Below are positions 11,390 through 58,616 of a stretch of DNA of 64,000 bases, piece after piece. The notes beneath the pieces were generated by a model. That model saw only the letters and a program-made list of their open reading frames with translations, did not search any database and was not told the DNA's origin. Both the position numbers and the translations under genes were made by a program. Position 1 is the first letter of the stretch; every line of letters starts with the position of its first letter. The stretch is from Nesterenkonia sp. F. Its GTDB lineage: Bacteria; Actinomycetota; Actinomycetes; Actinomycetales; Micrococcaceae. The stretch covers positions 1 to 64,000 of the forward strand of contig NZ_AFRW01000118.1 of the NCBI RefSeq assembly GCF_000220985.1, written 5' to 3'.

Positions 11390-11452
11390 GAATCACGTGC
11401 ACAGGTGTTCACCCCCGGGTCGTCGTCACCCGGCCACCCCCTCCCCGAGACA

Positions 11453-11514
11453 CGATGAGTCCGCGGTTCGTGCGGGAAAGAACCGTCTTTCCCGCACGAA
11501 CCGCGGACTCATCG
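11453..11514. repeat. Palindromic repeat copy B, terminator-like hairpin
   Basis: The most perfect copy: a 28-bp stem with no mismatch (11453-11480 with 11487-11514) and loop AACCGT. It lies 18 nt downstream of the stop of the GntP permease gene and upstream of the binding-protein 2 promoter, so it should insulate the two. Confidence 0.85.
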
Positions 11515-11532
11515 CTCGCGCAGCGGCCTCGC

Positions 11533-41140: not shown

Positions 41141-41671
41141 ATGCCTGACTCCGCAGACAACCCTGCCCATTCCGGGGAAGAGATCGAGCTCCGTGCCCCC
41201 GTGCTCTCCGACGGCGCCGCCCTGTGGCGGATCGCCGAGGGCACCGGCGTCCTCGATGTGAACACCCCGTACGCCTACCTGCTGTGGACCCGCGACTTCG
41301 CCGCCACCTCGGTGATCGCCCTGGTCGACGGCCGCCCCGCAGGCTTCATCTCCGGCTACCTGCGCCCCTCCGACCCGCAGACGCTGTTCATCTGGCAGGT
41401 GGCCGTCGACTCCGAGTTCCGCGGCCGCCGCCTGGCCTCCCGGATGCTCGCCGACGTCGTCGCCCGCTCCGGCGCGTGCCGCCTGGAGACCACCATCACC
41501 GCGGACAACGCCGCCTCCATCGCGCTGTTCACCGGGCTCGCCCGCGACCACGACACCGAGATCACCCGGTCCGACCTGTTCACCGAAGACCTGTTCCCCA
41601 CTCAGCAGGAGACCGGCGAGCACCACGCCGCCGAGGACCTCTACACCGTCGAGCCGCTGCGCTCGAGCTGA
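41141..41671 (+). CDS. ectA: L-2,4-diaminobutyrate acetyltransferase
   Basis: Acetylates diaminobutyrate in ectoine synthesis. GNAT protein of 176 residues from the ATG at 41141. Typical EctA segments: [33 protein letters not shown], acetyl-CoA loop [23 protein letters not shown], and [21 protein letters not shown]. No Shine-Dalgarno; TATCGT ends eight bases upstream, so it is probably leaderless. First gene of ectABC; no lysC-type kinase or ectD hydroxylase is adjacent. Confidence 0.97.
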
Positions 41672-41838
41672 GCGGGCCCCAGACGCACGACGTCGGCCGC
41701 CGCGACCGGGAACCGCCCGGATCCGCGGCAGCAGCGCAGCGGCACCCGCCGCAGGCGCCGACCAGCCGCCGTCGACCGCACCGAACCCCCATCCCAGACC
41801 GCGGCGCGCGACGCCGCATCACGGAGGAGACCACACCC

Positions 41839-43125: not shown

Positions 43126-43324
43126 TCCGGCTCCCGCCCGAGCCTCTCGTGTCCCCCGCGCTCCGCCTCCCGGCGCGGCACTCGCCGTGCGATGATGCGT
43201 GAGTCCGGGGGACACGGGCCGTGCGCGGCACCTGCCCCGCGCCGTCGACCGGACGGCGTCGCCCGGCCGTGTCGCCCCGACGACCTCCACCCTCCCCACC
43301 CCTCCCCGCAGACAGGAGACGAGC

Positions 43325-43714
43325 ATGTACACGCTGCACATCGACGACCTCAACGACGGCGAGCGCGACATCCGCAACGAGGACTGGCGCTCCCGCCGAA
43401 TGGTCCTCGGCCGCGAGAAGGTCGGCTTCTCGCTGCACGAGACCACCATCTACGCCGGCTCCACGCATGAGTTCTGGTACGCGAACCACATCGAGGCGGT
43501 CTACTGCGTCGGCGGCGCCGGCCGGCTGACCAACCTGGAGACCGACGAGGTCCACGAGATCACCGACGGCTTCCTCTACCTGCTGGACGGCCATGAGAAG
43601 CACCGCGTGGAGGCCGACGAGGAGCTCCGCCTGGTCTGCGTCTTCAACCCGCCGGTGACCGGCAAGGAGGTCCACGACGAGAACGGCGTGTACCCGCTGA
43701 TCGTCGAGGACTGA
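43325..43714 (+). CDS. ectC: L-ectoine synthase
   Basis: Closes the ring of N-acetyl-diaminobutyrate to give ectoine. Cupin of 129 residues, normal for the family. Metal ligands expected in [21 protein letters not shown] (Glu) and the Tyr/His in [11 protein letters not shown] are present. AGGAG precedes the ATG. The 199-nt gap after ectB is longer than usual and GC-rich. Followed at once by a perfect 20-bp hairpin terminator. Ectoine rather than hydroxyectoine is the expected product from these three genes. Confidence 0.98.
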
Positions 43715-43817: not shown

Positions 43818-44771
43818 TCACCCCACGTCTGCGCGACGCATGCCGACGCCCAGATGCGCGGCGCCGACCGCAGGAGCGCCGGAACTGGGCGGCAGCATCT
43901 CGAGGCGCTCGTCGATCCGCAGCGAGTGCAGGAAGTCCGATGCCTCTCCCGCCCTCCTCAGCTCGTCCACCACGACGTCCCGGAGCCGATCGCCGAGATG
44001 GACCAGACCTCCTCCGAGAAGCACGGTCGGCACGTCGAGCGTGAGCACGATCAGACGCACCGCCGCCGCGACGCCGGCGGCGAACTCGCGGCGCAGTCGC
44101 ATCGCCCGCCCCTCTCCGCGGTCGGCGGCGTCGAACATCTCCAGCACCGGCAGATCCCCGCCGCCCCACCGCCGCGCCACGGCCCCGCCGCCGGCGACGG
44201 TCTCGAGGCATCCGCGCTGGCCGCACGGGCAGGTCTCCCCCCGCGGGTCGACCGATATGTGGCCGATCTCGCCGGCCACTCCGCCGACTCCGCGCTGCAG
44301 GACCCCGTCCACCACCACCCCGGCGGCGACGCCGGTGCCCAGATTGAGGTAGACCAGGCTCTCCCTCTCCCGCCCGCGGATCCGGCACGCGCCGATCGCG
44401 GCGGCCTTCACATCGTTCTCCACCCGGACCGGCACGCCCAGTTCGCGCTCCAGGATGCGCGCGAGGTCCAGGTCCCGCAGGCCGAGGTTCACCGCGTGAC
44501 GCACCCGGCCGCTCGGCACCTCGATCTGGCCCGGGATGCCGACGCCGACCGATTCCGCCGACACCTCGCCGGAGGGTCCGCAGAGAGCGGCGACGGCCCG
44601 GCCCACCGTGTCGACGACACCTGACGGCCCGGGGACGGTGACGCACCGGTGCCGCGCGACGACCCGTCCTGCCGCATCGAGCGCCAGCGCCTCAGTCTTG
44701 GTCCCGCCGACGTCGAGCCCCACGCGGACGGGTCGTCCGACGACCGTCGCACCATCGAGTCGCCGCGTCAT
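43818..44771 (-). CDS. ROK family sugar kinase, possibly N-acetylglucosamine kinase
   Basis: 317 residues. The ATP motif is VGLDVGGTKTEALALD; the catalytic Asp is in VENDVKAAAIG; and the ROK zinc site is GEIGHISVDPRGETCPCGQRGCLETVAGG (His plus CxCGxxGCxE). It starts by ATGA overlap with the preceding ROK repressor, so they are one transcript. In context with a GH20-type hexosaminidase it would phosphorylate GlcNAc released inside the cell; glucose and N-acetylmannosamine are alternatives. NagA and NagB are not in the window. Confidence 0.92.
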   Translation of the reverse strand: MTRRLDGATVVGRPVRVGLDVGGTKTEALALDAAGRVVARHRCVTVPGPSGVVDTVGRAVAALCGPSGEVSAESVGVGIPGQIEVPSGRVRHAVNLGLRDLDLARILERELGVPVRVENDVKAAAIGACRIRGRERESLVYLNLGTGVAAGVVVDGVLQRGVGGVAGEIGHISVDPRGETCPCGQRGCLETVAGGGAVARRWGGGDLPVLEMFDAADRGEGRAMRLRREFAAGVAAAVRLIVLTLDVPTVLLGGGLVHLGDRLRDVVVDELRRAGEASDFLHSLRIDERLEMLPPSSGAPAVGAAHLGVGMRRADVG

Positions 44772-45922
44772 GAGACCCCCAGTTCGGCGGACAGCACCAT
44801 GACCAGCCCGCCCTGGAGGACGAGGTCGTCGCTCTGCAGGGGCACGCGCAGTCGCACATGGGTGTGGAAGCGACTCAGCGTGTGGCTCCGGAGCTTCTCC
44901 AGCGCGGCGTCGAGCAGCGTGCCGCCGAAGAGCTCATGCGGGGCCGCGATGACCACGTCGGAGAGGTTCAGCGCACCGACGATGGGAGCCAGCACGAGAG
45001 CCAGCCGGCCGCCCGCCTCCCGGAGGACCTGCTCATGCGCTCTGTCGCCTCCCGGATGCGAGGCATCGGCCTCCTCGAGCATCCGCGTCAGCTGCGGGAC
45101 GGACAGCCAGGCTTCCAGACAGCCGGTCTTCCCGCAGGCGCACTCGGGCCCATCGCCCTCTCCCACCTGGACGTGGCCGATCTCGCCGGCCGCCTGGGCG
45201 CTGCCGACGACGAGCTCACCGCGCACCAGCAGCGCCCCGCCGACGCCGCGCCCGACGCGGACGAGGAACATGTCCGGCTCGGCCTGCCCGAAGGTGTGCT
45301 CGGCGAGTGCCGCGGCGTTGGCGTCGTTGCCGACCACGGTGGGCACGCCCAGCGCGTCCTCCAGACGATCCCGCAGCGGAACCGCCTCCCATCCGAAGTT
45401 CGGCGCCTCCAGCACCTGACCGTCCTCCGAGATGATGCCCGGCGAACCGACTCCGACGCCGAGGACGCGCCCGTCGGCGACGTCCACGAGGGACCTGGCC
45501 AGGTCCACCACTTCGTCCACCGCGTCGTCGCCGGACCCGACCGTGGCGCGCGTCCGGATGCGCCGATCGAGCACGGCACCGGTGAGGTCCATCAGCGCGC
45601 CGACATTCTCCTCGGCCCCCGCGAGGTCCAGGGCGACGACCTGGATCCCATGCCGATCGAGGTCGACGAGCACGGCCGGCTTGCCCGGTCCGGAAGGTGC
45701 CCGCACCCCCTTCTCCACCACCAGCTCTCGCTCGAGGAGATGGGCGACCAGATCCGACGTGGTCACTCGCGTCAGCCCGGTCTCCCGTGCGAGATCGGCA
45801 CGACTCATCGCACCGCCGTGGAAGAGCGTGCGCAGCAGCAGGGTCAGATTGTGGGCCCGAGCATGCCGCGGCAGGACGCGCTGCGACGATCCGGCTCGTC
45901 GAGGGGTGGCGAGACTCTCCAT
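44768..45922 (-). CDS. ROK family transcriptional repressor (NagC/XylR type)
   Basis: 384 residues: winged helix-turn-helix (about 22-80, HNLTLLLRTLFHGGAMSRADLARETGLTRVTTSDLVAHL) joined to a ROK sugar-binding domain with VVGNDANAAALAEHTFG and the intact zinc motif GEIGHVQVGEGDGPECACGKTGCLEAW. The degenerate N-terminal ATP loop (ALDLAGAEENVGAL) fits a sensor rather than a kinase. It is divergent from the ABC importer at 46.15 kb. A perfect palindrome, TTTGTAAG-N5-CTTACAAA, lies directly before its ATG, so autorepression is likely. The ligand is probably a GlcNAc-type sugar or its phosphate. Confidence 0.93.
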   Translation of the reverse strand: MESLATPRRAGSSQRVLPRHARAHNLTLLLRTLFHGGAMSRADLARETGLTRVTTSDLVAHLLERELVVEKGVRAPSGPGKPAVLVDLDRHGIQVVALDLAGAEENVGALMDLTGAVLDRRIRTRATVGSGDDAVDEVVDLARSLVDVADGRVLGVGVGSPGIISEDGQVLEAPNFGWEAVPLRDRLEDALGVPTVVGNDANAAALAEHTFGQAEPDMFLVRVGRGVGGALLVRGELVVGSAQAAGEIGHVQVGEGDGPECACGKTGCLEAWLSVPQLTRMLEEADASHPGGDRAHEQVLREAGGRLALVLAPIVGALNLSDVVIAAPHELFGGTLLDAALEKLRSHTLSRFHTHVRLRVPLQSDDLVLQGGLVMVLSAELGVS

Positions 45923-45923
45923 G

Positions 45924-45944
45924 TTTGTAAGTATGGCTTACAAA
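45924..45944. promoter_or_regulatory. ROK repressor operator
   Basis: TTTGTAAG (45924-45931), five bases, CTTACAAA (45937-45944): a perfect 8-bp inverted repeat, AT-rich in a GC-rich genome, starting one base from the repressor's start codon. A degenerate relative (TTTTGTTAGTTAAG, about 46063-46077) lies nearer the importer promoter. Confidence 0.75.
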
Positions 45945-46152
45945 GCGGCTCCTCGCCTAGAGCGGATCGGAGCCGGTTCGCAGCGAGGCCCCCTCGGAGG
46001 GGTGCCGCCCGCGGCGTCCGCCGCGAACCCGCCGACCGCGACGGAGCTCGGAGCCCCCTTCCATTTTGTTAGTTAAGACGCCATACTTTTCCGCAGGGAG
46101 GTGTGACCCACACCACGCATCTCTGTCACAGCACCACGAGAGGAATCCACTC

Positions 46153-47430
46153 ATGCGACGCTCGATCGCGACGACCACCGCCGCAGCCCTCGCCCTCACC
46201 CTCACGGCCTGCGGCTCCAGCTCCGAGGGCGGCACCGACGGCGAGGAGTCCGCCTCCGCGGATCTCACGATGTGGTTGATGGAGCGCTCCGTGCCCGAGG
46301 AGGCGCAGGACTGGCTCGTCGAGGAGTTCGAATCCCGGCACGAGGGCTCCACGCTGACCATCCAGCACCAGCCCTGGGCCGGCATCGTCGAGCTGCTCCA
46401 GACCTCGCTGCCCGATGCCGAGCAGACGCCCGACCTCGTCGAGGTCGGCAACACCCAGGCCTCGACCTTCACCTCCGTGGGCGCCTTCGCACCCGTCGAC
46501 GACATGCTCGACGAGCTCGGCGGGGACTCGCTCATCGAATCCAGCCTCGACGCCGGCTCCTGGGACGGCACCGCCTACACTCCTCCGCTGTACGCCGGTT
46601 CGCGGGTCATCTACTACCGCAGAGACCTCCTGGAAGACGCCGGGATCGACGTTCCGCAGACGCTCGAGGAGCTCGGCGACGCGGCGATCGAACTCAACGA
46701 GGCCAACCCCGAGGACACCGAGGGTTTCACCGGCATCTACCTGGCCGCGGCCGACCCGAAGACGCTCGAAGGCTGGCTGTTCACGCACGGCGGCGACTAC
46801 GCCGTGCAGGACGAGGACGGCACCTGGGAGGGACGACTCTCCAGCCCCGAGTCCCTCGACGGGCTCCGAGAGGCTCAACGCCTGATGGAGCAGGGATCCG
46901 AGTACGTCCAGGATTCCAGCGAGACGGTCCAGGCCGCCGGCGAGCTGTTCAGCGCCGGCCGCGTCGGCTTCCTCTCCGGCCTGCCCTACATGGAGGACGA
47001 GATCGACCAGGAGATGTGGGACCAGGACCAGGTCGGAGTCATCGCGCTGCCGGGACTCACCGAGGGAGAGCCGGGCGTGACCTTCGCCGGAGGGTCGAAC
47101 ATCGGCATCTCCGCGGCCTCGCAGAACCAGGAGCTCTCCCAGGAGGTCCTGACGCTCATCTACAGCGAGGAGTTCCAGTCGCTGCTGGCCTCGGAGGGCG
47201 GCTGGGTGCCCGGAAACCTGGACTACGCCGACGCCCTCGAAGGACCCAGCGCCGAGCCGTTCCAGGTCGCAGTGGAGAACTCCAAGCTGACCCCGAACAC
47301 CCCGTCCTGGGGCGTGGTGGACAGCGCCCAGCTGCCGGTCGAGATCTGGACGCGCATCGCCGAGGGCGACGACGTCGAACAGGTGGCCGAGGAGATCGAC
47401 TCCGAGATCGAGGACGTCCTCAACGACTGA
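46153..47430 (+). CDS. ABC transporter sugar-binding lipoprotein, island 2
   Basis: Family 1 solute-binding protein of 425 residues with signal peptide MRRSIATTTAAALALTLTAC and lipobox LTAC. Mature part: ADLTMWLMERSVPEEAQDWLVEEFE, then TPDLVEVGNTQASTF and YYRRDLLEDAGIDVPQTLEEL, as in chito- or cello-oligosaccharide binders (NgcE-like in layout). It starts the importer operon divergent from the ROK repressor. GTGTG-ACC-CACAC (46101-46113) in the leader could be another control site. The substrate is inferred to be GlcNAc-containing oligosaccharides, including those with an oxidised end. Confidence 0.93.
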   Translation: MRRSIATTTAAALALTLTACGSSSEGGTDGEESASADLTMWLMERSVPEEAQDWLVEEFESRHEGSTLTIQHQPWAGIVELLQTSLPDAEQTPDLVEVGNTQASTFTSVGAFAPVDDMLDELGGDSLIESSLDAGSWDGTAYTPPLYAGSRVIYYRRDLLEDAGIDVPQTLEELGDAAIELNEANPEDTEGFTGIYLAAADPKTLEGWLFTHGGDYAVQDEDGTWEGRLSSPESLDGLREAQRLMEQGSEYVQDSSETVQAAGELFSAGRVGFLSGLPYMEDEIDQEMWDQDQVGVIALPGLTEGEPGVTFAGGSNIGISAASQNQELSQEVLTLIYSEEFQSLLASEGGWVPGNLDYADALEGPSAEPFQVAVENSKLTPNTPSWGVVDSAQLPVEIWTRIAEGDDVEQVAEEIDSEIEDVLND

Positions 47431-47479
47431 CCCTGTCGCATCCGCGCCCGGCCGGGTGCGGAGCCGGCCTGGAGGCCCC

Positions 47480-48466
47480 ATGACGATCCACGCACCGACT
47501 TCCCGCCGACCGCTCGACGAGGCGGCGACCGACCGACCGACGCCCGAGCCGCCGCGGCCGTCCCTCCGGTCCCGCGGACAGGTCCTCACTCCGTACCTGC
47601 TGCTGCTCGTGCCGACGGCGCTCGTCGTCCTGGCCCTCGGCTACCCGATGATCCGCCAGCTGGTGATGTCGTTCCAGGAGTTCGGCTTCGCCCAGCAGTT
47701 CGGACAGCCCCCGGAATGGGTCGGGCTGGACAACTACACCGCTATCCTCTCCGACCCGTACTTCTGGGTCGTCACGCTCAGGACGCTGGTCTTCACCGCG
47801 GGGGCCGCCGGCACGACCATGGTCATCGGCGTCGCCCTCGCCGTGCTGATGCAGCGAGTGGCGCCGGCGGCACGCACAGCTGTCCAGATCGCCCTCGTGT
47901 TCGCCTGGGCGACCCCGGTCATCGCCGCCGTCGCGATCTGGAAACTGATGACCGACCATCGCAACGGCGTGGTCAACGACGTCCTCGTCGGCTTCGGACT
48001 CACCGAGTTCGAGGGCTTCGACTGGCTGGACGGCGGAGCGGCCACCTTCATGCTGATCGGCGCCACAGTGGTGATCTGGGCCAGCACGCCGCTGGTCGCC
48101 CTCTCCGTCTTCGCGGCGCTGGCACAGGTGGACGAATCCATGGTCGAGGCCGCCCAGCTCGACGGCGCCTCGCTGGGACGGACGGTCTGGAGCGTCCTGC
48201 TTCCGAACATCCGTCCGGTGCTGGTGCTCCTGGGCATCCTCCAGGTGATCTGGGACCTGCGTGTGTTCGCCCAGATCTACTCGCTGCAGCAGGGCGCCGG
48301 AAGCACCGAGGAGACCAATCTGCTCGGCACGTACATCTACCACACCGGCATCGGAGGCGGGAACTATGGCGTGGCCTCCGCGCTGGCCATGGTGATGCTG
48401 CTCCTCCTCGTGGCGCTCACCTGGCGATACATCCGCAGACTCGGCAAGCAGGGAGATCTGTCATGA
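47480..48466 (+). CDS. Sugar ABC transporter permease (MalF type), island 2
   Basis: 328 residues from the ATG at 47480, with GGAGG just upstream. A disordered Pro/Arg-rich N-terminus precedes six spans, the first TPYLLLLVPTALVVLALGYPM. EAA motif: VEAAQLDGASLGRTVWSVLLP (about 222-242). ATGA overlap couples it to the next permease. Encoded with the binding protein but without an ATPase; the MsiK-like protein at 57.5 kb is the expected motor. Confidence 0.95.
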   Translation: MTIHAPTSRRPLDEAATDRPTPEPPRPSLRSRGQVLTPYLLLLVPTALVVLALGYPMIRQLVMSFQEFGFAQQFGQPPEWVGLDNYTAILSDPYFWVVTLRTLVFTAGAAGTTMVIGVALAVLMQRVAPAARTAVQIALVFAWATPVIAAVAIWKLMTDHRNGVVNDVLVGFGLTEFEGFDWLDGGAATFMLIGATVVIWASTPLVALSVFAALAQVDESMVEAAQLDGASLGRTVWSVLLPNIRPVLVLLGILQVIWDLRVFAQIYSLQQGAGSTEETNLLGTYIYHTGIGGGNYGVASALAMVMLLLLVALTWRYIRRLGKQGDLS

Positions 48467-49320
48467 GTGCCGCGAACTCCATCATGCGCCCCCGGACCGC
48501 CCGGGGTCGGACGACGCTGAACGCGGTGGCCGTCGCCGTCGCCCTGGTCTGGGTGTTCCCCATCTATTGGATGATCAACACCTCGCTCCAGCCGACGAGC
48601 ACGGTGCGCGTGGAGGGACCGGCTCCGGTGCCCCTCGAGTTCACCCCGGAGGCATACCTCGGCGTGCTGGCCGACCAGAGCTTCTGGACCGCGCTGAGCA
48701 TGAGCCTGCGGGTCAGCCTGCTCGCCGTCGCCGTCGCCCTGGTGTCGGCGACGCTCGCCGCCGTCGCGCTGAGCCGGTTCCGCTTCCGAGGCCGGGCCTC
48801 GGCGGTGGTCGCGGTCCTGGTCATCCAGATGATCCCGGCCGAGGCGCTGTTCATCTCCCAGTTCCGGATGCTCTCGGACTGGGGGCTGGTGAACACCGTG
48901 CTCGGGCTGTCCCTGCTCTACGTCGGCACAGTGATGCCGTTCATCGTGTGGATGCTCAAGGGGTTCGTCGACGGAGTCCCCGCCGACCTCGAGGAGTCGG
49001 CGATGACCGACGGCTGCACCCGATTCGGGGCGTTCGCCCGCGTCACGCTCCCGTTGCTGGGCCCGGGACTGGTCTCCACCGGCGTCTTCGCGTTCCTCGT
49101 CTCGTGGAACGAGTTCACGCTGGCCCTGGTGATCCTCTCCTCCGGCGGGCGGGTCACCCTCCCCGTCTGGCTCCAGGGCTTCCAGGAGGGCATCAGCGGC
49201 ACCGACTGGGCGGGGGTCATGGCCGGGTCGACGCTCATCGCCGTCCCGGTGCTCATCCTCTTCAGCATCGTCCAGCGGCGCATGGCGCGCGGGATGGTCT
49301 CCGGAGCCGTCAAAGGCTGA
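48463..49320 (+). CDS. Sugar ABC transporter permease (MalG type), island 2
   Basis: 285 residues, six spans beginning LNAVAVAVALVWVFPIYWMI. EAA motif: EESAMTDGCTRFGAFARVTLP (about 182-202), with the conserved Gly-Cys-Thr variant. The C-terminus is short and basic (QRRMARGMVSGAVKG). Overlaps the MalF-type gene by four bases and is followed after 85 nt by the GH20-like gene, which is probably in the same operon. Confidence 0.95.
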   Translation: MSAANSIMRPRTARGRTTLNAVAVAVALVWVFPIYWMINTSLQPTSTVRVEGPAPVPLEFTPEAYLGVLADQSFWTALSMSLRVSLLAVAVALVSATLAAVALSRFRFRGRASAVVAVLVIQMIPAEALFISQFRMLSDWGLVNTVLGLSLLYVGTVMPFIVWMLKGFVDGVPADLEESAMTDGCTRFGAFARVTLPLLGPGLVSTGVFAFLVSWNEFTLALVILSSGGRVTLPVWLQGFQEGISGTDWAGVMAGSTLIAVPVLILFSIVQRRMARGMVSGAVKG

Positions 49321-49405
49321 CCTCCCGCGCGCCGCCGACGCGCCCCGACGAACTCCCGACGATCTTCCGACAGACCGATCTCGACCTGACGACGAAGGAC
49401 GCCCC

Positions 49406-51226
49406 ATGAACCTCCCCCTGCACCCTGCTCCCCGCCGGATCGAAGAGATCCCGGGCCGCCCGCCCCACGCCGACGTCGACGTGCTCACCTCTCAGGACGA
49501 TCAGCTGCCGCCTCAGGGCTATCGGCTGGAGTACGGCGAGACGGTGCGCATCGCCCACGCCGACGCCGCCGGGCTGCGGTATGCCCTGCAGACGCTCGCG
49601 CAGCTGCGGGCGACGTCTCCGACGCCGGACCGTGCCGTACGGATCGTCGACTGGCCGGACTTCGCCCGACGCGGCTTCCAGCTGGACATCAGTCGGGATC
49701 GGGTCCCCACGCGGGCCGGACTGCGACGGCTGGTCGACGTCCTGGAGCTGGCGCGGTTCAACCAGCTCGAGCTCTACATGGAGAACACCTTCGCCTACCG
49801 CGACCATGCGGAGGTGTGGCAGGACGCGTCGCCGATGACGCCCGAGGACCTGCGCTGGCTGGACGACCTCTGCGTCGCGCGCGGGATCGAACTGGTGCCC
49901 AACCAGAACACATTCGGCCACTGGGAACGGTGGCTGTCCCACGACGAGCACCGGCACCGCGCCGAACATCCCGAGTCGCAGACCTTCGCCGGCACGGTCC
50001 GTCCGCCGTCGACGCTGGCCCCCACGGACGACAACGCCCGATTCGTGACGGGCCTGCTCGACGAGCTCACGCCCCACGTCCGCTCGCGCCGGCTGAACAT
50101 CGGCGCCGACGAGACCTGGGAGCTCGGGACCGGCGCCAGCCGGCAGCAGGTCGCGGCACGCGGTCTGGGCCCGGTGTTCCTCGACTACGTGGAGAAGGTG
50201 GCGCGTCCGTGGACGGATCGCGGATACACCGTCGAGTTCTGGTCCGACATCCTCGGCAGTCACCCAGAGCTCATGGACCGCATCCCCGAGGGCACTGTGC
50301 CGGTCGTCTGGCTCTATGACTCGCCGGACCACATCGCCACCGTCCTGGAACGCATGAGCCCGGCCGAGCAGGAGTTCAACCGAGCCCACGGCGTCGACGC
50401 CGAGCAGCTGCGGAGCTTCTCCTCCCGGGCTCGCGCGCTGATCGATGCCGGCGTGTCGTTCTGGGTCGCCCCCGGGACCGGGACCTGGCTCTCCTTCGTC
50501 GGACGGCTCGACAACGCGATCGGCAACATGGTCGATGCGGCGGAGACCGGAATCGCCCACGAGTCGGAGGGGTTCCTGCTCACCTGCTGGGGAGACGGCG
50601 GACATGTCGATCCGCCGGCCATCAGCTATGCGCCGATCGTCTTCGGCGGCGGCGTGAGCTGGGCCCTGGAAGCCAACCGCGACGTCGAGCATCGCCTCGC
50701 CGAGGTCCTCGACCGCCACGTCTTCGACGACGAGGCCGGCGTCCTGGGCGGGGTCCTGACCGACGTCGGACGCGTGGCCGACGGCCTGGACGCCGCGATC
50801 GGCAACGCCAGCCCGCTGTTCCGCGTCATCCAGCAGGCCGGAGCGATGGAGCCGCACCACGTCCCCTCGGCCGGGAGTCTGGCCTCGGCCCGTGATGTCC
50901 TCAGCTCCGCCCTGTCCCGGCTGGACGACGCCCGTCCCGCCGCCGCGGACGGAGCCGCGGTCATCGCCGAGATCCGTCAGGCGGTCCGCTGGGCGCTGTT
51001 CGGCGTCGAGGTGTTCGAGTCCGGCCTCGTCGCCGTCGTCGACGGCACCGCGGAGATGTCGAGGGAGACGGCACGAGGCCTCCTGGACCGCTTCGACAGC
51101 CTGCTGGCCGATCAGCGGCGGACGTGGCTGCTCGCCGCGCGTCCGGGAGGACTCGACACGAGCATCGCGCGGTTCGCACCGCTGCGGCGGAGGCTGGCAC
51201 GCCTGGCGAGCGGATCCGCGGACTGA
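49406..51226 (+). CDS. GH20-type beta-N-acetylhexosaminidase, cytoplasmic
   Basis: 606 residues, no signal peptide. The small N-terminal domain (residues 1 to about 85) ends AGLRYALQTLAQL, the usual bridge to a GH20 barrel, and the barrel begins VDWPDFARRGFQLDISRDRVP. The catalytic Asp235-Glu236 pair is in LNIGADETWELG; NTFGHWERW and FWSDILGSHPELM are other barrel strands. The C-terminal 200 residues are helical without a known name. Retaining GH20 enzymes use the substrate's acetamido group, so the substrate should carry GlcNAc or GalNAc at the non-reducing end. Because it is intracellular and downstream of an importer, intact chito-oligosaccharides must be brought in first. Confidence 0.9.
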   Translation: MNLPLHPAPRRIEEIPGRPPHADVDVLTSQDDQLPPQGYRLEYGETVRIAHADAAGLRYALQTLAQLRATSPTPDRAVRIVDWPDFARRGFQLDISRDRVPTRAGLRRLVDVLELARFNQLELYMENTFAYRDHAEVWQDASPMTPEDLRWLDDLCVARGIELVPNQNTFGHWERWLSHDEHRHRAEHPESQTFAGTVRPPSTLAPTDDNARFVTGLLDELTPHVRSRRLNIGADETWELGTGASRQQVAARGLGPVFLDYVEKVARPWTDRGYTVEFWSDILGSHPELMDRIPEGTVPVVWLYDSPDHIATVLERMSPAEQEFNRAHGVDAEQLRSFSSRARALIDAGVSFWVAPGTGTWLSFVGRLDNAIGNMVDAAETGIAHESEGFLLTCWGDGGHVDPPAISYAPIVFGGGVSWALEANRDVEHRLAEVLDRHVFDDEAGVLGGVLTDVGRVADGLDAAIGNASPLFRVIQQAGAMEPHHVPSAGSLASARDVLSSALSRLDDARPAAADGAAVIAEIRQAVRWALFGVEVFESGLVAVVDGTAEMSRETARGLLDRFDSLLADQRRTWLLAARPGGLDTSIARFAPLRRRLARLASGSAD

Positions 51227-51269
51227 CCGGTGATCCCGTCCCGCGGCGGACCCGCCCGACGATCCGAGG

Positions 51270-51914
51270 TCATGGACGCGCCGTGTCCAAGCTTCCGGTG
51301 AACGAGGCGGCGCGCTCGGCGATCTCCGTCCAGCCGCCGTCCCGCACCACGGCGGGCGGCACCACGGAGGTGCCGCAGCACACCGCCGCGGCTCCGGCGG
51401 CCAGGAAGGCCGCGGCGTTCTCGGCGCCGATGCCGCCCGAGGGCAGCAGCTGCACGCCCGGATAGGGCCCCTGGAGGTCCTTGAGGTATCGCGGCCCCAC
51501 GGTTCCGGCCGGGAAGATCTTGACCGGGTCGGAGCCGAGCTCCATGGCGCGCCCCACCTCGGTCGGCGTCATCGCCCCGAGGCTGAACGGAACCTGCGCC
51601 TCGCGGGCGACGGCGGCCACGTCCTCGCGGATCCCCGGCGTCACCAGGAACTGCGCCCCGGCGTCGACGGCCTCGCGGGCCTGCTCCGCCGTCATGACGG
51701 TGCCGACGCCCACCATCGCCCCGTGCTCGGCGGCGGTCTCGGCGATGCGTCGCACATGCGAGGCCACGCCCGGGGTGGTGAAGGTGAGTTCGACGACGCG
51801 GATGCCGCCGGCGGCCAGGGCGGCGGCCAGCTCCGCGGCGTCGGGGATGTCCTCCGCGCGCACGACGGCGAGCGTCCTGTCGGCGGCGAGGCGGCCTGCC
51901 AGGGTCTCAGTCAC
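51270..51914 (-). CDS. eda: 2-keto-3-deoxy-6-phosphogluconate aldolase
   Basis: Splits KDPG to pyruvate and glyceraldehyde 3-phosphate. 214 residues, a normal length. Catalytic Glu42 is in VVELTFTTPGV and the Schiff-base Lys132 in DPVKIFPAGTVGP; MVGVGTVMTAEQA and LPSGGIGAENA complete the family signature. The GTG start lies eight bases inside the end of the D-aminoacylase-like gene, so the two are coupled. It is the last gene of a three-gene minus-strand operon and acts after the KDG kinase encoded divergently at 55 kb. KDPGal aldolase activity is possible. Confidence 0.95.
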   Translation of the reverse strand: MTETLAGRLAADRTLAVVRAEDIPDAAELAAALAAGGIRVVELTFTTPGVASHVRRIAETAAEHGAMVGVGTVMTAEQAREAVDAGAQFLVTPGIREDVAAVAREAQVPFSLGAMTPTEVGRAMELGSDPVKIFPAGTVGPRYLKDLQGPYPGVQLLPSGGIGAENAAAFLAAGAAAVCCGTSVVPPAVVRDGGWTEIAERAASFTGSLDTARP

Positions 51915-53550
51915 GGGATTCAGTTCCTTTCTCGGTGCGGCGCAGCGCTCGGCCCGCGCGGTCCCCCGTGGGATGCCCGCGGCGCCAGGAGAGCACTCCG
52001 TTGACGTAGACGCTGTGGATGCCCGCGGCCGGCCGCCGGGGCTCGTCGAACGTGGCCCGGGCCTCGACCGCCTCGGGGTCGAAGAGCACCAGGTCCGCGG
52101 CCGAGCCGAGGGAGACGGTGCCGCGGCCGACGAGCCGCAGCCGGGCGGCGGGGCGTCCGGTGAGATGGTGGATCATCTCCTCGAGCGTGAGCAGCCCGAG
52201 GTCCCGGCAGTAGCGGCCCAGATACCGGGGGAAGGTGCCCCAGGCGCGCGGGTGGGGTCTGTCGCCGTGGAGCAGGCCGTCGCTGCCGCCGGTGTGGACG
52301 CGATGGGTCATGATCGTCTGGACGTTCTCCTCATGACCGACGTGCTGGAGGATGCCGGTGCCCAGCCGATCGGCGGTCAGGATCTCGCAGAAGACGTCGA
52401 ACGGCTCGCGATCCGCCGAGGCAGCGAGCTCCGCGATCGTCCGGCCCACGCACTCGGCGAGCGCCGGGTCCTGCACGGAGGAGATCTCGAGGGCGTCCCA
52501 TTCCATGGGCACGCCGTGGCATCCGTCGGATCCCTCGACCTCCAGGGCGTGGCGGATCCGCGCCCGCGTCCGAGGGTCCTCGAGTCGGGCGAGCGCATCG
52601 TCGGCGGAGCCGGCGGTGGACCAGCTCGGCAGCATGGCGGCGAGCGTGGTCGCACCGGGCAGGTAGGGGTAGGTGTCCAGCGTGATGTCGACGCCGTCGT
52701 CGAGCGCGGCATCGATCATCTCCAGCAGCTCCGGTGCCCGGCCGGCGTTCTCCGCGAAGTTCATCGTCGCGTGCGAGAGGTGCAGCGCGCACCCGGAGCG
52801 CCGGCTCAGCTCGATCATCTCGGCATAGGCCGCCAGCGCGCCGTGGCCGTAGGAGCGATGATGCGGGGCGTAGAACCCGCCGTGGACGGCGACTTCGGCG
52901 CAGAGCTGCTCGAGCTCGGCGGAGGACGCGTACATCCCCGGCGTGTACGTCAGCCCGCTCGACAGACCGACCGCTCCCTGCTCCATGGCCGCGGCGACCA
53001 TCGCGCGCATCGTCGCGATCTCCGCGTCTGTGGCCGGGCGATCGTCGAATCCGACGACGGCGGCGCGCACCGTCCCCTGAGGGACGAGGTAGGCGGCGTT
53101 CGCGGCGATCCGCCGGCCGGCCTCGTCCGGGGCGTCCAGGCGGTCGAGGTACTCGGCCACAGTGCGCCAGTCGACGGCGAAGTCCTCCGGGTCGCCGTTC
53201 CATCCGGCGATCTTCTCCCGGATCACCGGCAGCGTGACGTCGGTGACCGGCGCGTAGGAGAGCCCGTCCTGGCCCAGCAGTTCGGTGGTCACGCCCTGGG
53301 AGAGCTTGGGCGCGTGCTCGGGACGGGTGAGCAGATGCAGGTCCGAGTGGGCGTGCATGTCGATGAAGCCGGGGCACAGGACCAGGCCTTCGGCGTCGAC
53401 CGACGTCTCGTCGGACCGTGGCACGAGGCTGCCGGGCTCGGCGATCTCCGCGATCAGACCGTCGGCCAGCCGGACGTCGGCGATCCGACGGTCGGCGCCG
53501 GTGCCGTCGATCACGGCGGCGCATGAGACGAGCGTGGAGGGTATCGACAT
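51907..53550 (-). CDS. D-aminoacylase family amidohydrolase, possible N-acetylglucosaminate deacetylase
   Basis: 547 residues, urease-type metal-dependent amidohydrolase. HAH metal motif in CPGFIDMHAHSDLHLL (about 58-74), LSSGLTYTPGMYAS typical of N-acyl-D-amino-acid deacylases, later His ligands in YAPHHRSYGHG and CALHLSHATMNF, and the Asp in HTGGSDGLL. In this operon the natural substrate is unlikely to be an ordinary D-amino acid: the next enzymes make and use 2-keto-3-deoxygluconate. D-Glucosaminate is itself a D-2-amino acid, so removal of acetate from N-acetyl-D-glucosaminate would suit both the family and the context. Inference, not proof. Confidence 0.88.
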   Translation of the reverse strand: MSIPSTLVSCAAVIDGTGADRRIADVRLADGLIAEIAEPGSLVPRSDETSVDAEGLVLCPGFIDMHAHSDLHLLTRPEHAPKLSQGVTTELLGQDGLSYAPVTDVTLPVIREKIAGWNGDPEDFAVDWRTVAEYLDRLDAPDEAGRRIAANAAYLVPQGTVRAAVVGFDDRPATDAEIATMRAMVAAAMEQGAVGLSSGLTYTPGMYASSAELEQLCAEVAVHGGFYAPHHRSYGHGALAAYAEMIELSRRSGCALHLSHATMNFAENAGRAPELLEMIDAALDDGVDITLDTYPYLPGATTLAAMLPSWSTAGSADDALARLEDPRTRARIRHALEVEGSDGCHGVPMEWDALEISSVQDPALAECVGRTIAELAASADREPFDVFCEILTADRLGTGILQHVGHEENVQTIMTHRVHTGGSDGLLHGDRPHPRAWGTFPRYLGRYCRDLGLLTLEEMIHHLTGRPAARLRLVGRGTVSLGSAADLVLFDPEAVEARATFDEPRRPAAGIHSVYVNGVLSWRRGHPTGDRAGRALRRTEKGTESRD

Positions 53551-53560
53551 CGGGATGCTC

Positions 53561-54892
53561 CTAGAAGCAGGTCCGCACGGTCGAGACCACGCGGGCGTCC
53601 TGCGGCGAGTCCGCGTCGTCGAGCACCGGCAGCAGCTGCCACTTGTCCAGCGCGGTGCACGGATGCGAGAGCCCCAGACGCACCACGTCCCCGGGCGAGA
53701 TCTCCTGATCCGGGTCGACGACGAGGAAGCAGTGCTGGTCGTTCACCGCGGTGATCGCGGCGTCCCGGAGCTCCGTCATCGGGCCGCCGAGCCGCGGCCC
53801 GATCAGCTGCGGCGCCGGGAGCCCCTCGTCGACGGGGACGTCCCTCTTGCCGGCGTCGAGGATGGCCAGTCCCGGCTCAGGCTGCGAGACCACCCGCGCC
53901 CAGCAGTGCATGGCCGAGCGCAGCGCGCCCGGTCCGTCAGGGTCGGTGCGGCCCAGCGGAGAGATCCCGCGATAGAAGCCGTCGTCGTGGATGATGCAGG
54001 CCCCGCTGCGCAGCACGACGCGCACGGCCGGCCGGCCCCCGCCCGCCTCGCGGACACGCTCGGCCAGCACGTCGACGACATCGTCGAAGAACGCGGATCC
54101 GCCGGCCGTGATCATCACCTCGTCGGCGGCGTACAGAGCCTCGGCGTCGAGCTGGTCATGGAGCATGCCGACGCGCTCGAGATAGCCGCGCACGATCGTC
54201 AGGGCGGCGGCGTCGCCGGTGTGCGCGAGCGCGCCCTCGTATCCGCCGACGCCCACCAGACGCAGCTGCGGGGCGGCGGCGACGGCGCGGGCGATCGCCA
54301 CCGCCTCGTCATCGGTCCGCGCGCCGGTCCGGCCTCCAGGTGCACCGAGCTCCACGACGATGTCCAGCACCGCCTCCGGGAACTCGGCGAGCACGGCCTC
54401 CAGGCGTGCGACGGCACGCTCCGAGTCGACCCAGGACACGATCTCCGCGCCGTCGAGGACATCCTGCGCGGCCTCGCCGATCGCCCCGGGATCGGTGAGG
54501 ACGTTGGCGACCATCACGCGTCGCACACCGTGCTGCCGGGCCACCCGGAGCTGCGGCGCGTTCGCCAGCGTGATGCCCCAGGCACCGTGGGCGAGCTGCT
54601 GCGCCCAGAGCTGCGGGGCCATCGTCGTCTTCCCGTGCGGCGCCCAGTCCACGCCGTGGCGGGAGCACCAGGCCGCGAACCGCTCGCCGTTGCCCTGCAG
54701 ACGTCCGGCGTCGAGCGTCATCACCGGCGTCTGGAGACGCCCCAGCGCCGGCCGCTCCTCCGCGAGCTCGCGGGCGGTCAGGCCGTGGAAGGCACGCGGG
54801 ACGGCGTGGTGCCGCCACCCCAGCACCTCGTCGGAGATCTCGTCGACGCGCTCCCGGTCGATGGGATCGATCAGACGCGGGGAATCGGCCAC
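53561..54892 (-). CDS. PLP enzyme of the D-serine dehydratase/D-threonine aldolase family, possible D-glucosaminate deaminase
   Basis: 443 residues from a GTG with GGAGG four bases upstream; an ATG 24 nt earlier would lie in the operator. Alanine-racemase-like barrel with PLP Lys88 in VDWAPHGKTTMAP, phosphate region TAGGSAFFDD, and a C-terminal domain carrying the zinc pair His/Cys in LSHPCTALDKW, as in D-serine dehydratases. Such enzymes eliminate water and ammonia from D-3-hydroxy-2-amino acids; D-glucosaminate has exactly this arrangement and would give 2-keto-3-deoxygluconate. KDG kinase and KDPG aldolase next door support that. D-serine or D-threonine are alternatives. Confidence 0.88.
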   Translation of the reverse strand: MADSPRLIDPIDRERVDEISDEVLGWRHHAVPRAFHGLTARELAEERPALGRLQTPVMTLDAGRLQGNGERFAAWCSRHGVDWAPHGKTTMAPQLWAQQLAHGAWGITLANAPQLRVARQHGVRRVMVANVLTDPGAIGEAAQDVLDGAEIVSWVDSERAVARLEAVLAEFPEAVLDIVVELGAPGGRTGARTDDEAVAIARAVAAAPQLRLVGVGGYEGALAHTGDAAALTIVRGYLERVGMLHDQLDAEALYAADEVMITAGGSAFFDDVVDVLAERVREAGGGRPAVRVVLRSGACIIHDDGFYRGISPLGRTDPDGPGALRSAMHCWARVVSQPEPGLAILDAGKRDVPVDEGLPAPQLIGPRLGGPMTELRDAAITAVNDQHCFLVVDPDQEISPGDVVRLGLSHPCTALDKWQLLPVLDDADSPQDARVVSTVRTCF

Positions 54893-54904
54893 GGGTCCTC
54901 CTGC

Positions 54905-54932
54905 ATTGCATATCATGCAATTAACGTTGCAA
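54905..54932. promoter_or_regulatory. Operator between the deaminase and KDG kinase genes
   Basis: ATTGCAT-ATC-ATGCAAT (54905-54921) is a perfect 7-bp inverted repeat, followed by an extra half site TTGCAA (54927-54932). It lies in the 150-bp divergent region and is the likely target of the IclR regulator encoded in the plus-strand operon. Confidence 0.65.
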
Positions 54933-55042
54933 AGTGAGCAGGATCATGTTTAGCATCGACCGCACCGGCCGTCAACGGCCACCGCGCCTCCGGACGCCGG
55001 CGCGCGGCGAACGGAGGGGCGACGAGGGAGAGGGGCACACAG

Positions 55043-56083
55043 GTGACGGATGCGATCTGCCTGGGTGAGGCGATGGCGATGGTGACCCCGCCGCCGGGCG
55101 AGTGCCTCGCAGACTGCGACGCGCTCAGCCTGTCGATCGGCGGAGCCGAGGCCAACGTCGCCCTGGGCCTGTCGTCGCTCGGGGTGTCCACCGCCTGGGC
55201 GAGCCGCCTCGGCGACGACGCCTTCGGCGAACGCATCCGCCGGACGCTGCAGGACGGCGGAGTGGACGGCTCCTGCATCGAGCACGATCCGCGGCGGCAC
55301 ACCGGTCTCTACGCCAAGGACCCCGCCGCCCGCGCGGCGGACCGCATGCTCTACTACCGCGCCGGATCTGCGGCCAGCGCCATGGGACCGGACTTCCTGC
55401 GCACCGGGCGACTCCCCGGGTTGCTCGAGTCCGCGCGGCTGATCCACACCAGCGGCATCACCCCCGCGCTCTCCGCGGAATGCTTCGCGATGACAGAGGA
55501 GCTGCTGAGTCGCCGGCCCGGCGAGGCGCTGGTCTCCTTCGACGTCAACTGGCGCCCCGCCCTCTGGGAGGGCCGGGAAGCCGCCGATCTCGCCCGACTG
55601 GCCGACCGGGCCGACGTCGTGCTGGTCGGCCGGGACGAGGCGGAGGCCGCCTTCGACGTCCACGACGAGCACCAGCTGCGCGAGCTTCTGCCCTCGCCGC
55701 GCCTGCTGGTGATCAAGGACGAGGCGGTCGGTGCGGTCGCCCTGGAGGCCGACGGCGCCCGCACCCGCGTGCCGTCGCTGACCGTCGACGTCGTGGAGTC
55801 GGTCGGGGCCGGCGACGCCTTCGCCGCCGGCTATCTCGCCGAACTGCTCCGCGGCGGCGACCAGCGCAGGGCGCTGCGCAGCGGACACCTCTGCGCGGCG
55901 GCCACGCTCACCGTGCCGACCGACCGGGGACCGCTGCCGGCGACGGAGACGGCGGCCGCGGCACTGGCCTCCTCGGAGGCCGCATGGCGCGCCGTCCGAG
56001 CCTCGGCCGAAGGGCTTCAGCTGCCGCATCGACCCCTGCGACCGGACCATGAGCCGCCGCGCCGCGACGGGAGCAGATCATGA
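55043..56083 (+). CDS. kdgK: 2-keto-3-deoxygluconate kinase (PfkB family)
   Basis: 346 residues, GTG start. PfkB motifs: SIGGAEANVALGLSSLG (about 31-47), substrate loop DRMLYYRAGSAAS with the Tyr-Tyr-Arg of KDG kinases, VSFDVNWRPALW, and the anion hole with catalytic Asp258 in VESVGAGDAFAAGY. The C-terminal 40 residues are extra, basic and disordered. The stop overlaps the IclR start (ATGA). It produces KDPG for the divergently encoded aldolase. A fructokinase-like role is less likely given the neighbours and the YYRAGSA motif. Confidence 0.92.
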   Translation: MTDAICLGEAMAMVTPPPGECLADCDALSLSIGGAEANVALGLSSLGVSTAWASRLGDDAFGERIRRTLQDGGVDGSCIEHDPRRHTGLYAKDPAARAADRMLYYRAGSAASAMGPDFLRTGRLPGLLESARLIHTSGITPALSAECFAMTEELLSRRPGEALVSFDVNWRPALWEGREAADLARLADRADVVLVGRDEAEAAFDVHDEHQLRELLPSPRLLVIKDEAVGAVALEADGARTRVPSLTVDVVESVGAGDAFAAGYLAELLRGGDQRRALRSGHLCAAATLTVPTDRGPLPATETAAAALASSEAAWRAVRASAEGLQLPHRPLRPDHEPPRRDGSRS

Positions 56084-56835
56084 GCGAATCGCTCAGGCGC
56101 GCGCTGACCCTCCTCGACCAGCTCGCCCACGAGCCCTCGACGCTGGACGAGATCGCCGGGCGGACCGACGCCCACAAGACCACCGTCATGCGCCAGCTCC
56201 ACACTCTGGAGGACTGCCGGTTCGTCGTGCGGGACGCGCGGGGACGGTATCGGATCGGCTCCAAGGTCCTGGAGCTCTCGGCCCTCGCACTGGAGGAGCG
56301 CAGCATCGTCTCCGTGGCGCGGCCACACCTGCAGCAGCTGAACCGGGCCACCGGGCACACCGTCCACCTCGCCGCCTTCGAGGGGCCCGACGTCGTCTAC
56401 ATCGACAAGCTCGAATCGCGCCATGCGGTGCGGATGTACTCCCGCGTCGGCCTCACCGCCCCGCTGCATGCGACCGCGGTGGCGAAGGTGCTGATCGCCG
56501 ACCTGCCTGCCGCACGGCGCGAGCACATCGCGACGTCGCTGGACTACCGACGATTCACGGACCAGACCATCTCCGGCCCGCAGGAGTATCTCGCGGCGCT
56601 CGATGACGTCGCCGCGCGCGGCTGGGCGATGGACGACCGGGAGCACGAGGAGTTCGTGCACTGCGTCGCGGCTCCGGTCCGCGACGCCTCGGGCCGGGCG
56701 GTCGCCGCCGTCTCGACCTCGGTGCCGGTCGTGCTGGCGGACTCGGAGCAGCTGCTGGCCCTGGTGCCCTCGCTGACCGCCGTCGCGGAGGCGGCCTCCG
56801 CAGATCTGGGATGGAACCCGACAGAGAGGACCTGA
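56080..56835 (+). CDS. IclR family transcriptional regulator
   Basis: 251 residues: winged helix-turn-helix (about 1-65, LRRALTLLDQLAHEPSTLDEIAGRTDAHKTTVMRQLHTL with the wing RYRIGSKVLEL) and an IclR ligand domain (about 80-245) with VYIDKLESRHAVRMYSRVG, PLHATAVAKVLIADL and the conserved HCVAAPVRD. Translationally coupled to kdgK and three nucleotides before ridA. Members beside kdgK/eda genes commonly sense KDG (KdgR type), which would fit. It probably binds the palindrome at 54905-54921 and controls both divergent operons. Confidence 0.94.
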   Translation: MSESLRRALTLLDQLAHEPSTLDEIAGRTDAHKTTVMRQLHTLEDCRFVVRDARGRYRIGSKVLELSALALEERSIVSVARPHLQQLNRATGHTVHLAAFEGPDVVYIDKLESRHAVRMYSRVGLTAPLHATAVAKVLIADLPAARREHIATSLDYRRFTDQTISGPQEYLAALDDVAARGWAMDDREHEEFVHCVAAPVRDASGRAVAAVSTSVPVVLADSEQLLALVPSLTAVAEAASADLGWNPTERT

Positions 56836-56838
56836 CAC

Positions 56839-57240
56839 ATGACCAAGCACATCATCAGCACGGAGAACGCCCCGCAGCCGGCGCACACCTTCTCGCAGGG
56901 ACTCCGGAAAGGGCCGATCCTGCAGATCTCCGGCCAGGGCCCCATGGATCCGGAGACGGCGCAGTACATCGGCGACGGCGACGTCCGGGTCCAGACCCGT
57001 CGCACGCTGGAGAACATCCGAGCGATCCTGGAGGCCGGCGACGCCTCCATGGAGGACGTCGTCATGCTCCGCGTGTACCTGAAGGACCAGCAGGACTTCG
57101 CCGCCATGAACGAGGCCTACGCCGAGTTCATCGAGGAGCACGTGCCCAGCGGCCGGAAGCCCTGCCGCACGACCGTCTTCGTCTGCCTGCCCCACGAGGT
57201 CATGCACGTCGAGATCGACGCCCAGGCCGTCGTGGCCTGA
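56839..57240 (+). CDS. RidA family enamine/imine deaminase
   Basis: 133 residues. The hallmark active-site Arg110 is in GRKPCRTTVFV and Glu125 in MHVEIDAQAV; the N-terminal AFSQG is THFSQG-like here (HTFSQGLRKGPILQISGQ). RidA proteins hydrolyse reactive 2-aminoacrylate-type enamines released by PLP dehydratases. Co-transcription with kdgK and proximity to the PLP deaminase gene suggest it speeds or detoxifies release of ammonia from the enamine formed there. Confidence 0.93.
   Translation: MTKHIISTENAPQPAHTFSQGLRKGPILQISGQGPMDPETAQYIGDGDVRVQTRRTLENIRAILEAGDASMEDVVMLRVYLKDQQDFAAMNEAYAEFIEEHVPSGRKPCRTTVFVCLPHEVMHVEIDAQAVVA

Positions 57241-57470: not shown

Positions 57471-58616
<1,146 letters not shown>

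Follow-up and report, generated by a model that had tools for sequence, protein, structure and literature searches.

Our analysis of a 64,000-nucleotide stretch of the Nesterenkonia sp. F genome (RefSeq assembly GCF_000220985.1, contig NZ_AFRW01000118.1, positions 1 to 64,000 of the forward strand; hereafter the window) leads us to favor a model in which a gene island at 43818-57240 imports and catabolises C1-oxidised (aldonate-ended) oligosaccharides of N-acetylglucosamine (GlcNAc), a reading that we regard as probable, though well short of secure. The model builds on a catabolic core of six genes, in which those for a 2-keto-3-deoxy-6-phosphogluconate (KDPG) aldolase, a deacylase and a fold-type III pyridoxal phosphate (PLP) deaminase are divergent from those for a 2-keto-3-deoxygluconate (KDG) kinase, an IclR regulator and RidA. 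It also draws on the recurrence, beside this core, of genes for GH20 enzymes and sugar ATP-binding cassette (ABC) importers, and on a lactonase encoded in some of these loci, which we take as the best single indication of C1-oxidised substrates.

The genes named in an initial annotation of this DNA are open frames at the coordinates it gave and fall in the expected Pfam families. The frames are thus real, and some of the starts had to be moved: the lipoprotein more likely begins at 46153 (MRRSIATTTAAALALTLTAC; start and signal read from the sequence), the second permease more likely at 48463, and the deaminase at either 54916 or 54892. The genes form two blocks that meet tail to tail, with the GH20 gene ending at 51226 and the aldolase gene at 51270. 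The first block holds a ROK kinase and a ROK regulator on the minus strand, then the lipoprotein, two permeases and the GH20 enzyme on the plus strand. The second is the core, with aldolase, deacylase and deaminase on the minus strand and KDG kinase, IclR regulator and RidA on the plus strand, its halves diverging from a 126-base gap.

43818..44771, minus strand: ROK-family sugar kinase that would phosphorylate released GlcNAc or a similar sugar (PF00480, 168.9 bits)
44768..45922, minus strand: ROK/NagC-like transcriptional regulator, divergent from the importer (PF00480, 139.1 bits; weak MarR_2 match)
46153..47430, plus strand: sugar ABC solute-binding lipoprotein with lipobox LTAC (PF01547, SBP_bac_1, 107.7 bits)
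47456..48466, plus strand: ABC permease of MalF/UgpA type (PF00528, BPD_transp_1, 42.8 bits; UgpA and GlcT models below cut-off)
48463..49320, plus strand: ABC permease, MalG type by position (PF00528, BPD_transp_1, 58.6 bits)
49406..51226, plus strand: GH20 beta-N-acetylhexosaminidase of a divergent subfamily (PF00728, 44.1 bits, cut-off 22.3; PF02838, GH20b, 37.4)
51270..51914, minus strand: KDPG (or 2-keto-4-hydroxyglutarate, KHG) aldolase (TIGR01182, eda, 190.6 bits, cut-off 156.05; Pfam KDPG/KHG aldolase, 156.8)
51907..53550, minus strand: deacylase of D-aminoacylase fold, metal site with GQDG motif, proposed to deacetylate N-acetyl-D-glucosaminate (PF07969, Amidohydro_3, 124.6 bits)
53561..54916, minus strand: fold-type III PLP D-hydroxyamino-acid deaminase, proposed to convert D-glucosaminate (GlcN1A) to KDG and NH3 (PF14031, D-ser_dehydrat, 66 bits; PF01168)
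54917..55042, no strand: divergent intergenic region of the two core operons, a probable promoter/operator region by gene layout
55043..56083, plus strand: PfkB-type kinase for KDG, or for KDG and 2-keto-3-deoxygalactonate (KDGal) (PF00294, 156.3 bits)
56080..56835, plus strand: IclR-family regulator (PF01614, IclR_C, 154.7 bits)
56839..57240, plus strand: RidA enamine/imine deaminase (PF01042, Ribonuc_L-PSP, 105.8 bits)
57471..58616, plus strand: UgpC/MsmK-type ABC ATPase, probable energiser of the importer (NF008653, 468.4 bits, cut-off 432; PF00005, OB_MalK)

We envision a scenario in which the lipoprotein and the two permeases, powered by the UgpC/MsmK-type ATPase, would import the oxidised oligomer, and a cytoplasmic GH20 would cut GlcNAc off its non-reducing end to leave N-acetyl-D-glucosaminate (GlcNAc1A). 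The GlcNAc would be phosphorylated by the ROK kinase and passed to NagA and NagB, which are encoded elsewhere in the host genome and both score above cut-off. The GQDG deacylase would deacetylate the aldonate, the PLP enzyme would deaminate the product to KDG with RidA clearing the enamine/imine, and the PfkB kinase would phosphorylate KDG, which the KDPG aldolase would split into pyruvate and glyceraldehyde-3-phosphate. All substrates in this scheme are inferred, as are the import direction, a cytoplasmic location for GH20, what RidA does and where the oligomers come from. The logic is supported by precedent, since the same logic has been proven in the ong pathway of Pseudoalteromonas, a marine gammaproteobacterial system of the kind to which the initial annotation had referred. 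As described in the accessible text of that report (PMC9537276), the Pseudoalteromonas prydzensis cluster encodes OngA, OngB, OngC, KdgK and the RidA protein OngD, deletion of ong genes abolishes growth on GlcNAc1A or GlcNAc-GlcNAc1A, OngB deacetylates GlcNAc1A and OngC makes KDG.

Model scores leave several of these proteins without a finer assignment. The ROK kinase had been called GlcNAc-type, which we could not establish: it belongs to the ROK family, but every NCBIfam ROK model scores below its own cut-off (PRK13310, 74.6 of 380 bits; PRK13311, 38.7 of 551). The NagC model on the ROK regulator (115.5 bits, cut-off 650), the BhcR and KdgR models on the IclR regulator (169.5 of 350 and 158.4 of 275 bits) and the best NCBIfam model for the PfkB kinase, KDG/KDGal kinase (165.3 bits, cut-off 440), are likewise under threshold. 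The solved relatives of the lipoprotein are all distant, and we dropped any inference of substrate from it.

The core is a conserved unit. A window-type deacylase is encoded in 16 of 149 genomes of the same family, the window included (one copy, in G144, lies in two open pieces), and all 15 other loci hold the six core genes together in the same divergent order, a grouping that is more than chance. We also surveyed 80 named loci, the best 80 of at least 524 relatives, counting a gene anywhere in a locus of up to ~21 kb, with some loci ending at a contig edge. The deaminase was present in 79, RidA in 77, the IclR regulator in 74, KDG kinase in 71, a GntP permease in 62 and KDPG aldolase in 40. 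Three of the named loci (L087, L093 and L094) have deacylase stretches identical to, and contigs as long as, those of family loci L037, L043 and L044 and are the same loci, and together the two sets comprise 92 distinct loci besides the window. Nearly all of the 80 belong to Actinomycetota (Micrococcaceae, Nocardiaceae, Pseudonocardiaceae, Streptomycetaceae and others). The one Bacillota record (L098, a Sporosarcina beigongshangi contig) has the six-gene core with a deacylase nested among Micrococcaceae sequences, and reflects either recent transfer or contamination. In the deaminases (best one per locus, OngC-type included) the motifs HGKT and SHPC are kept in 101 of 101 and 100 of 101 homologues, and the best solved relative of the window enzyme, 3gwq, is also that of the OngC homologue in a Pseudoalteromonas cluster (L060).

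The family names of the deacylase and deaminase could also describe a unit for ordinary N-acyl-D-amino acids, made of a D-aminoacylase and a D-serine/D-threonine dehydratase. The best-scoring solved sequence and fold for the deacylase is indeed a D-aminoacylase (1m7j), and OngC itself also deaminates D-serine and D-threonine, according to the accessible text of PMC9537276. We consider this explanation very improbable, because KDG kinase is usual in the core; from family chemistry, neither it nor the eda-type aldolase and gluconate-class permease that often stand alongside would be needed for D-serine or D-threonine. Moreover, none of the 96 rows of our deacylase alignment keeps the Lys by which D-aminoacylases anchor the alpha-carboxylate.

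The usual transporter of the core also bears on its substrate. A GntP permease gene comes next after the aldolase gene in 8 of the 15 family loci; seven of these permeases are 74-81% identical to the eighth, that of L031, and a ninth locus (L044) has a distant GntP (33%) close to the core. The L031 protein scores above the cut-off of the gluconate:H+ symporter subfamily (360.1 versus 292.75), and by this representative the GntP partner appears to be an aldonate-class transporter. Taken as a set, the deacylase, the deaminase of 2-amino-3-hydroxy acids, the KDG kinase and the aldonate-class permease suggest that the substrate is an N-acyl-2-amino-2-deoxy-aldonate. No close orthologue of the core GntP was found in the host (best 43%), so the ABC importer may have taken over uptake. 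Two further GntP-like permeases are encoded in the window on the minus strand, at 11533-12972 (36-37% identical to the L031 protein) and 19128-20606 (32%).

The aldonate need not be GlcNAc1A. The core could act on a different N-acyl-2-amino-2-deoxy-aldonate, such as N-acetyl-D-galactosaminate (by way of KDGal), or on aldonates that derive from lipid A or sugar dehydrogenases and not from lytic polysaccharide monooxygenases (LPMOs) acting on chitin. The kinase is closest to bifunctional KDG/KDGal kinases, GH20 enzymes release N-acetylgalactosamine too, no LPMO was found in the host, and the deacylase pocket is unlike that of OngB. But the aldolase passes the eda (KDPG/KHG) cut-off while the model for the corresponding galactonate (KDPGal) aldolase reaches just 102.3 of 207 bits, and we judge a substrate of this other kind improbable.

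Oligomer use, as distinct from monomer use, would depend on the GH20 and importer genes. The window GH20 carries its D-E pair within NIGADETWEL (motif NIGADE); a structure prediction for it was too poor for use (pLDDT 54.7). Of the 80 named loci, 12 (three Arthrobacter, eight Amycolatopsis and one Saccharopolyspora) have a GH20 gene of another subfamily no more than 10 kb from the core. All 12 encode two permeases, and a binding protein is in view in 11, the remaining locus (L088) being cut at that spot. In the family sample, G024 (L040) also has a GH20 gene and one permease frame within 10 kb of the core. The cassette lies on the RidA side in L087 and L088, on the GntP side and facing the core in L091, and on the GntP side in the same direction in Amycolatopsis and L138, which makes at least three layouts among the 12 loci; in the window GH20 is on the aldolase side. 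GH20 genes were counted by hand with pieces of one gene merged (19 genes in 11 genomes); in the family sample three were seen at up to 10 kb from the core (the window, G024 and G071) against ~0.10 expected. Without the window 0.09 were expected and two seen (Poisson 0.004, with the 10 kb limit chosen afterwards; our Poisson and Fisher values ignore kinship). By genome, 11 of 16 core-bearing family members have GH20 versus 12 of 133 others, and by genus 6 of 9 versus 3 of 23. Within the host genus, neither GH20 nor a window-type deacylase was found in any of the six other genomes sampled, so the two blocks look jointly gained.

Several Actinomycetota loci contain a gene that an oxidised substrate would explain. 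A PF10282 lactonase is encoded between the GntP gene and the binding-protein gene in the eight Amycolatopsis loci and in L138 (Saccharopolyspora), as called by Pfam in L103 and L138 and by tblastn in the other Amycolatopsis loci. Lactonase genes also lie near the core in L131 (by Pfam), L142 and L161, bringing the total to 12 of 80, all Amycolatopsis or Saccharopolyspora; no GH20 match was found in the wider neighbourhood of L161. The two lactonase N-termini that we read look like twin-arginine signals. In a Vibrio locus of ong-type content (L059: deaminase, deacylase, RidA, kinase, aldolase and GH20) a PF10282 lactonase directly follows GH20, and no lactonase match was found in the Pseudoalteromonas clusters L058 and L060. 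GlcNAc1A is an equilibrium of the 1,5-lactone and the open aldonic acid, as stated in the accessible text of PMC12017989, and a lactonase is expected for C1-oxidised sugars, so its place next to the core and GH20 fits the use of oxidised oligomers. The string "lacton" is absent from the main text of the ong report (PMC9537276).

A number of observations, here and in the paragraphs on the deacylase and the host, weigh against our model. GH20 of the window type is rare: the 149 family genomes yield one full-length relative (49%; G004), which is accompanied by permease genes and lacks the core, and only weak partial matches in 13 further genomes. The window enzyme is 25-30% identical to four core-adjoining GH20s elsewhere. 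In 68 of the 80 core loci no such GH20 was seen inside the locus, and the core occurs more often with a GntP permease, which makes the oligomer part look like an add-on. Our search for a lactonase in the host covered the window and found no homologue there.

The nature of the GH20 matters too. SmCHB is a GH20 of Serratia. According to the accessible text of PMC13325158, SmCHB is reported not to split the oxidised dimer GlcNAc-GlcNAc1A, so only a suitable GH20 could break the last bond.

These observations raise the possibility that the two blocks adjoin but work independently, the importer and GH20 serving ordinary GlcNAc-oligosaccharides or fragments of glycans and the core handling monomeric (N-acetyl-)D-glucosaminate that enters through another permease. 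The many core loci without GH20 and with GntP, the G004 arrangement and the separate ROK and IclR regulators are all consistent with this. Yet other genera repeat the pairing of GH20 (there of a different subfamily) and ABC genes with the core, GH20 genes exceed the expected number near the core in the family sample, and in nine loci the lactonase stands between the GH20/importer genes and the core. We therefore think two independent units unlikely, and continue to favor joint use of the island on oxidised oligomers.

The deacylase would be the first enzyme specific to the aldonate, and it differs markedly from OngB. Its predicted model (pLDDT 92.2) has the D-aminoacylase fold and matches AfDam (1m7j), N-acyl-D-glutamate deacylase (3gip) and PpOngB about equally, with Foldseek target-normalised TM scores of 0.90 to AfDam and 0.92 to 3gip; BLAST identity to three OngB-type proteins is 31-33%. 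Residues were counted over 96 rows of window-type deacylases, including three duplicate loci and one row that is half of a split gene with a gap. The equivalents of His68, His70, Tyr194, His222, His252, Tyr285, Asp368 and Arg379 are kept (His68 and His70 in 95 of 95 plus the one gap). Asp replaces the metal-ligand Cys97 (95 of 95 and one gap), and the subtype V Cys/His/His ligand set is thus not seen, both His being kept in 96 of 96. The carboxylate-binding Lys254 is Thr in 94 and Val in 2, and Glu226, Ser290 and Ser292 are replaced by Tyr, Gly and Thr in every row. The Gln298-bearing loop aligns unreliably, with Arg, His or Ala there in the window clade. According to the accessible text of PMC12017989, S292T lowered the efficiency of PpOngB to 1.3%; for the same substrate, the pocket here would have to function in another way. 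In a tree of 44 chosen rows, all 30 window-type rows taken from the 96 lie on one side of a branch (96/96), and the OngBs stand beside AfDam across a further branch (100/99). Residues and tree led us to reject orthology with OngB. The reference deacylase from L060 (WP_209438165) is PaOngB, which deacetylated only GlcNAc1A among the substrates tried, as given in the accessible text of PMC12017989. If our reading is right, the window enzyme would work like OngB but, judged by its sequence, sit outside the OngB family.

Related deacylases appeared in other settings. A Klebsiella pneumoniae structure deposited as an N-acyl-D-amino-acid deacylase (PDB 9g5m) clusters in our tree with the three OngB-type rows (100/100) and has retained their pattern of Ser290-Ser292 and Gln298; by its sequence it may be a GlcNAc1A deacetylase. 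A second GQDG-type lineage in the same family as the host (L055, L057 and L056, the last a 3.5 kb piece) has its own deaminase in all three loci and KDG kinase, aldolase and RidA in L055 and L057, with an MFS transporter adjoining the L055 cluster, and is possibly a separate version of the same chemistry. Genus g22 encodes deacylase-like proteins 37-42% identical to that of the window (L045, L047-L049 and L051) in which the alignment shows other residues in place of several metal ligands and of the catalytic Asp; a KDPG-type aldolase lies beside four of the five. The L047 protein (10375-11988) has no Pfam match, and its neighbours are a glycine-betaine-type ABC importer, an FAH-type hydrolase and an AMP-binding enzyme. 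A haloarchaeal deacylase on a Natrinema zhouii plasmid (L061), with Asp at the Cys place and 41% identity to the window enzyme, lies ~6.5 kb from a GH20 gene and near a PIG-L deacetylase, a class-V aminotransferase-fold enzyme and an FAH hydrolase.

The AA10 LPMO and GH18 genes to which the initial annotation had pointed gave no match in the host genome (assembly 93% complete), and on our model the host would be a scavenger. AA10 is encoded in 4 of 16 core-bearing family genomes versus 2 of 133 others (by genus, 2 of 9 versus 1 of 23), and in 25 of 40 named core-bearing genomes, the AA10 search having covered 40 of the 80. It is present in all nine Amycolatopsis and Saccharopolyspora genomes with a GH20 cassette, and was not found in 10 Micrococcaceae genomes, including the three Arthrobacter genomes with a cassette. 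These counts follow kinship. In a sample of the phylum, a window-type deacylase (at least 53% identity) and AA10 are each present in 15 of 396 genomes and both in 11, but all 11 belong to one genus, so the co-occurrence test says little and we dropped it as proof of a link to chitin. Three genomes of genus g26 (G097, G114 and G144) carry an AA10 gene at a distance of 18-40 kb from the core; in G097, whose surroundings we scanned, it stands beside CTP synthase and a GntR/GntP/kinase set, and we did not use it as linkage. An ectoine synthesis set (acetyltransferase, class-III aminotransferase and ectoine synthase; PF06339, 177.5 bits) adjoins the island at 41009-43714. The GC profile shows no sharp island border, and no tRNA was found in the window.

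Altogether, the use of oxidised oligomers proposed in the initial annotation stands in its pathway logic, in the GH20 and sugar-ABC genes beside the core in several genera, and in the lactonase between them in two; the deacylase, which is no OngB orthologue and lacks the GlcNAc1A-binding residues of PpOngB, and the core's more frequent GntP partner do not fit it. Its intracellular GH20 also agrees with what we see: the GH20s beside the core appear to open with the GH20 N-terminal domain itself, and by eye none shows an export signal, some starts being inferred from alignment and no predictor run. These findings lead us to a broader hypothesis, for which we find the case evenly balanced, that a second pathway for C1-oxidised chitin was recruited separately in Actinomycetota. 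A clade of the D-aminoacylase fold with Asp in place of the ligand Cys would have turned to GlcNAc1A deacetylation independently of OngB and come together more than once with ABC importers, cytoplasmic GH20s and a secreted aldonolactonase, and soil actinobacteria would import and use intact oxidised oligomers released by their own or others' LPMOs. If true, the same chemistry would have been assembled twice from one enzyme fold. The fate of the LPMO-made oxidised end-sugar in soil actinobacteria seems undescribed in the searchable literature. Because the gene set is conserved and widespread and its first enzyme can be tested, the question can be answered directly.

The novelty claimed for an actinobacterial version holds so far: we found no earlier report in the literature searched, which mostly excluded subscription papers. 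A review of actinobacterial chitinolysis contains none of the words aldonic, oxidized, oxidised, glucosaminate or GlcNAc1A, and a 2025 study of chitin use by Streptomyces venezuelae none of aldonic, oxidized, glucosaminate, GlcNAc1A or LPMO. The ong screen, which required four or more genes at >30% identity, covered 2,455 marine and 12,220 terrestrial genomes; in the accessible text of the report (PMC9537276) the positives are Gammaproteobacteria and one betaproteobacterium, and "actino" does not occur in the main text. Against three ong-type clusters the window proteins are 31-33% (deacylase), 31-34% (deaminase), 30-32% (RidA) and 26-28% (kinase) identical, near or under the limit of that screen.

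Among known systems, the DasABC-MsiK and NgcE chitobiose importers of Streptomyces likewise carry out ABC import of GlcNAc oligomers, but in the accessible text of PMC6167110 they are described for non-oxidised ones; we liken them by description and not by sequence kinship. AfDam (1m7j) and 3gip have the same fold as the window deacylase, which differs in lacking the Cys metal ligand and the Lys anchor and in having sugar-acid genes conserved nearby. The OngB GlcNAc1A deacetylases (PpOngB, 9kb1, and PaOngB) also share this fold, whereas the window type has a different insertion region and belongs to another clade. Where the ong cluster uses TonB receptors and an SSS symporter, a periplasmic OngA and RpiR regulators, the window has ABC import, a GH20 without a visible export signal and IclR and ROK regulators, in a host with no LPMO found; the SSS symporter OngIT had no match in the window or in L075-L163, and TonB receptors were not sought. 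What the two systems share is a single cluster that brings together GH20, a D-aminoacylase-fold deacylase, a fold-type III PLP deaminase, RidA and KDG kinase, and the ong clusters of Vibrio, Klebsiella and Serratia, as described in the accessible text of PMC9537276, also carry kdgA, like the window.

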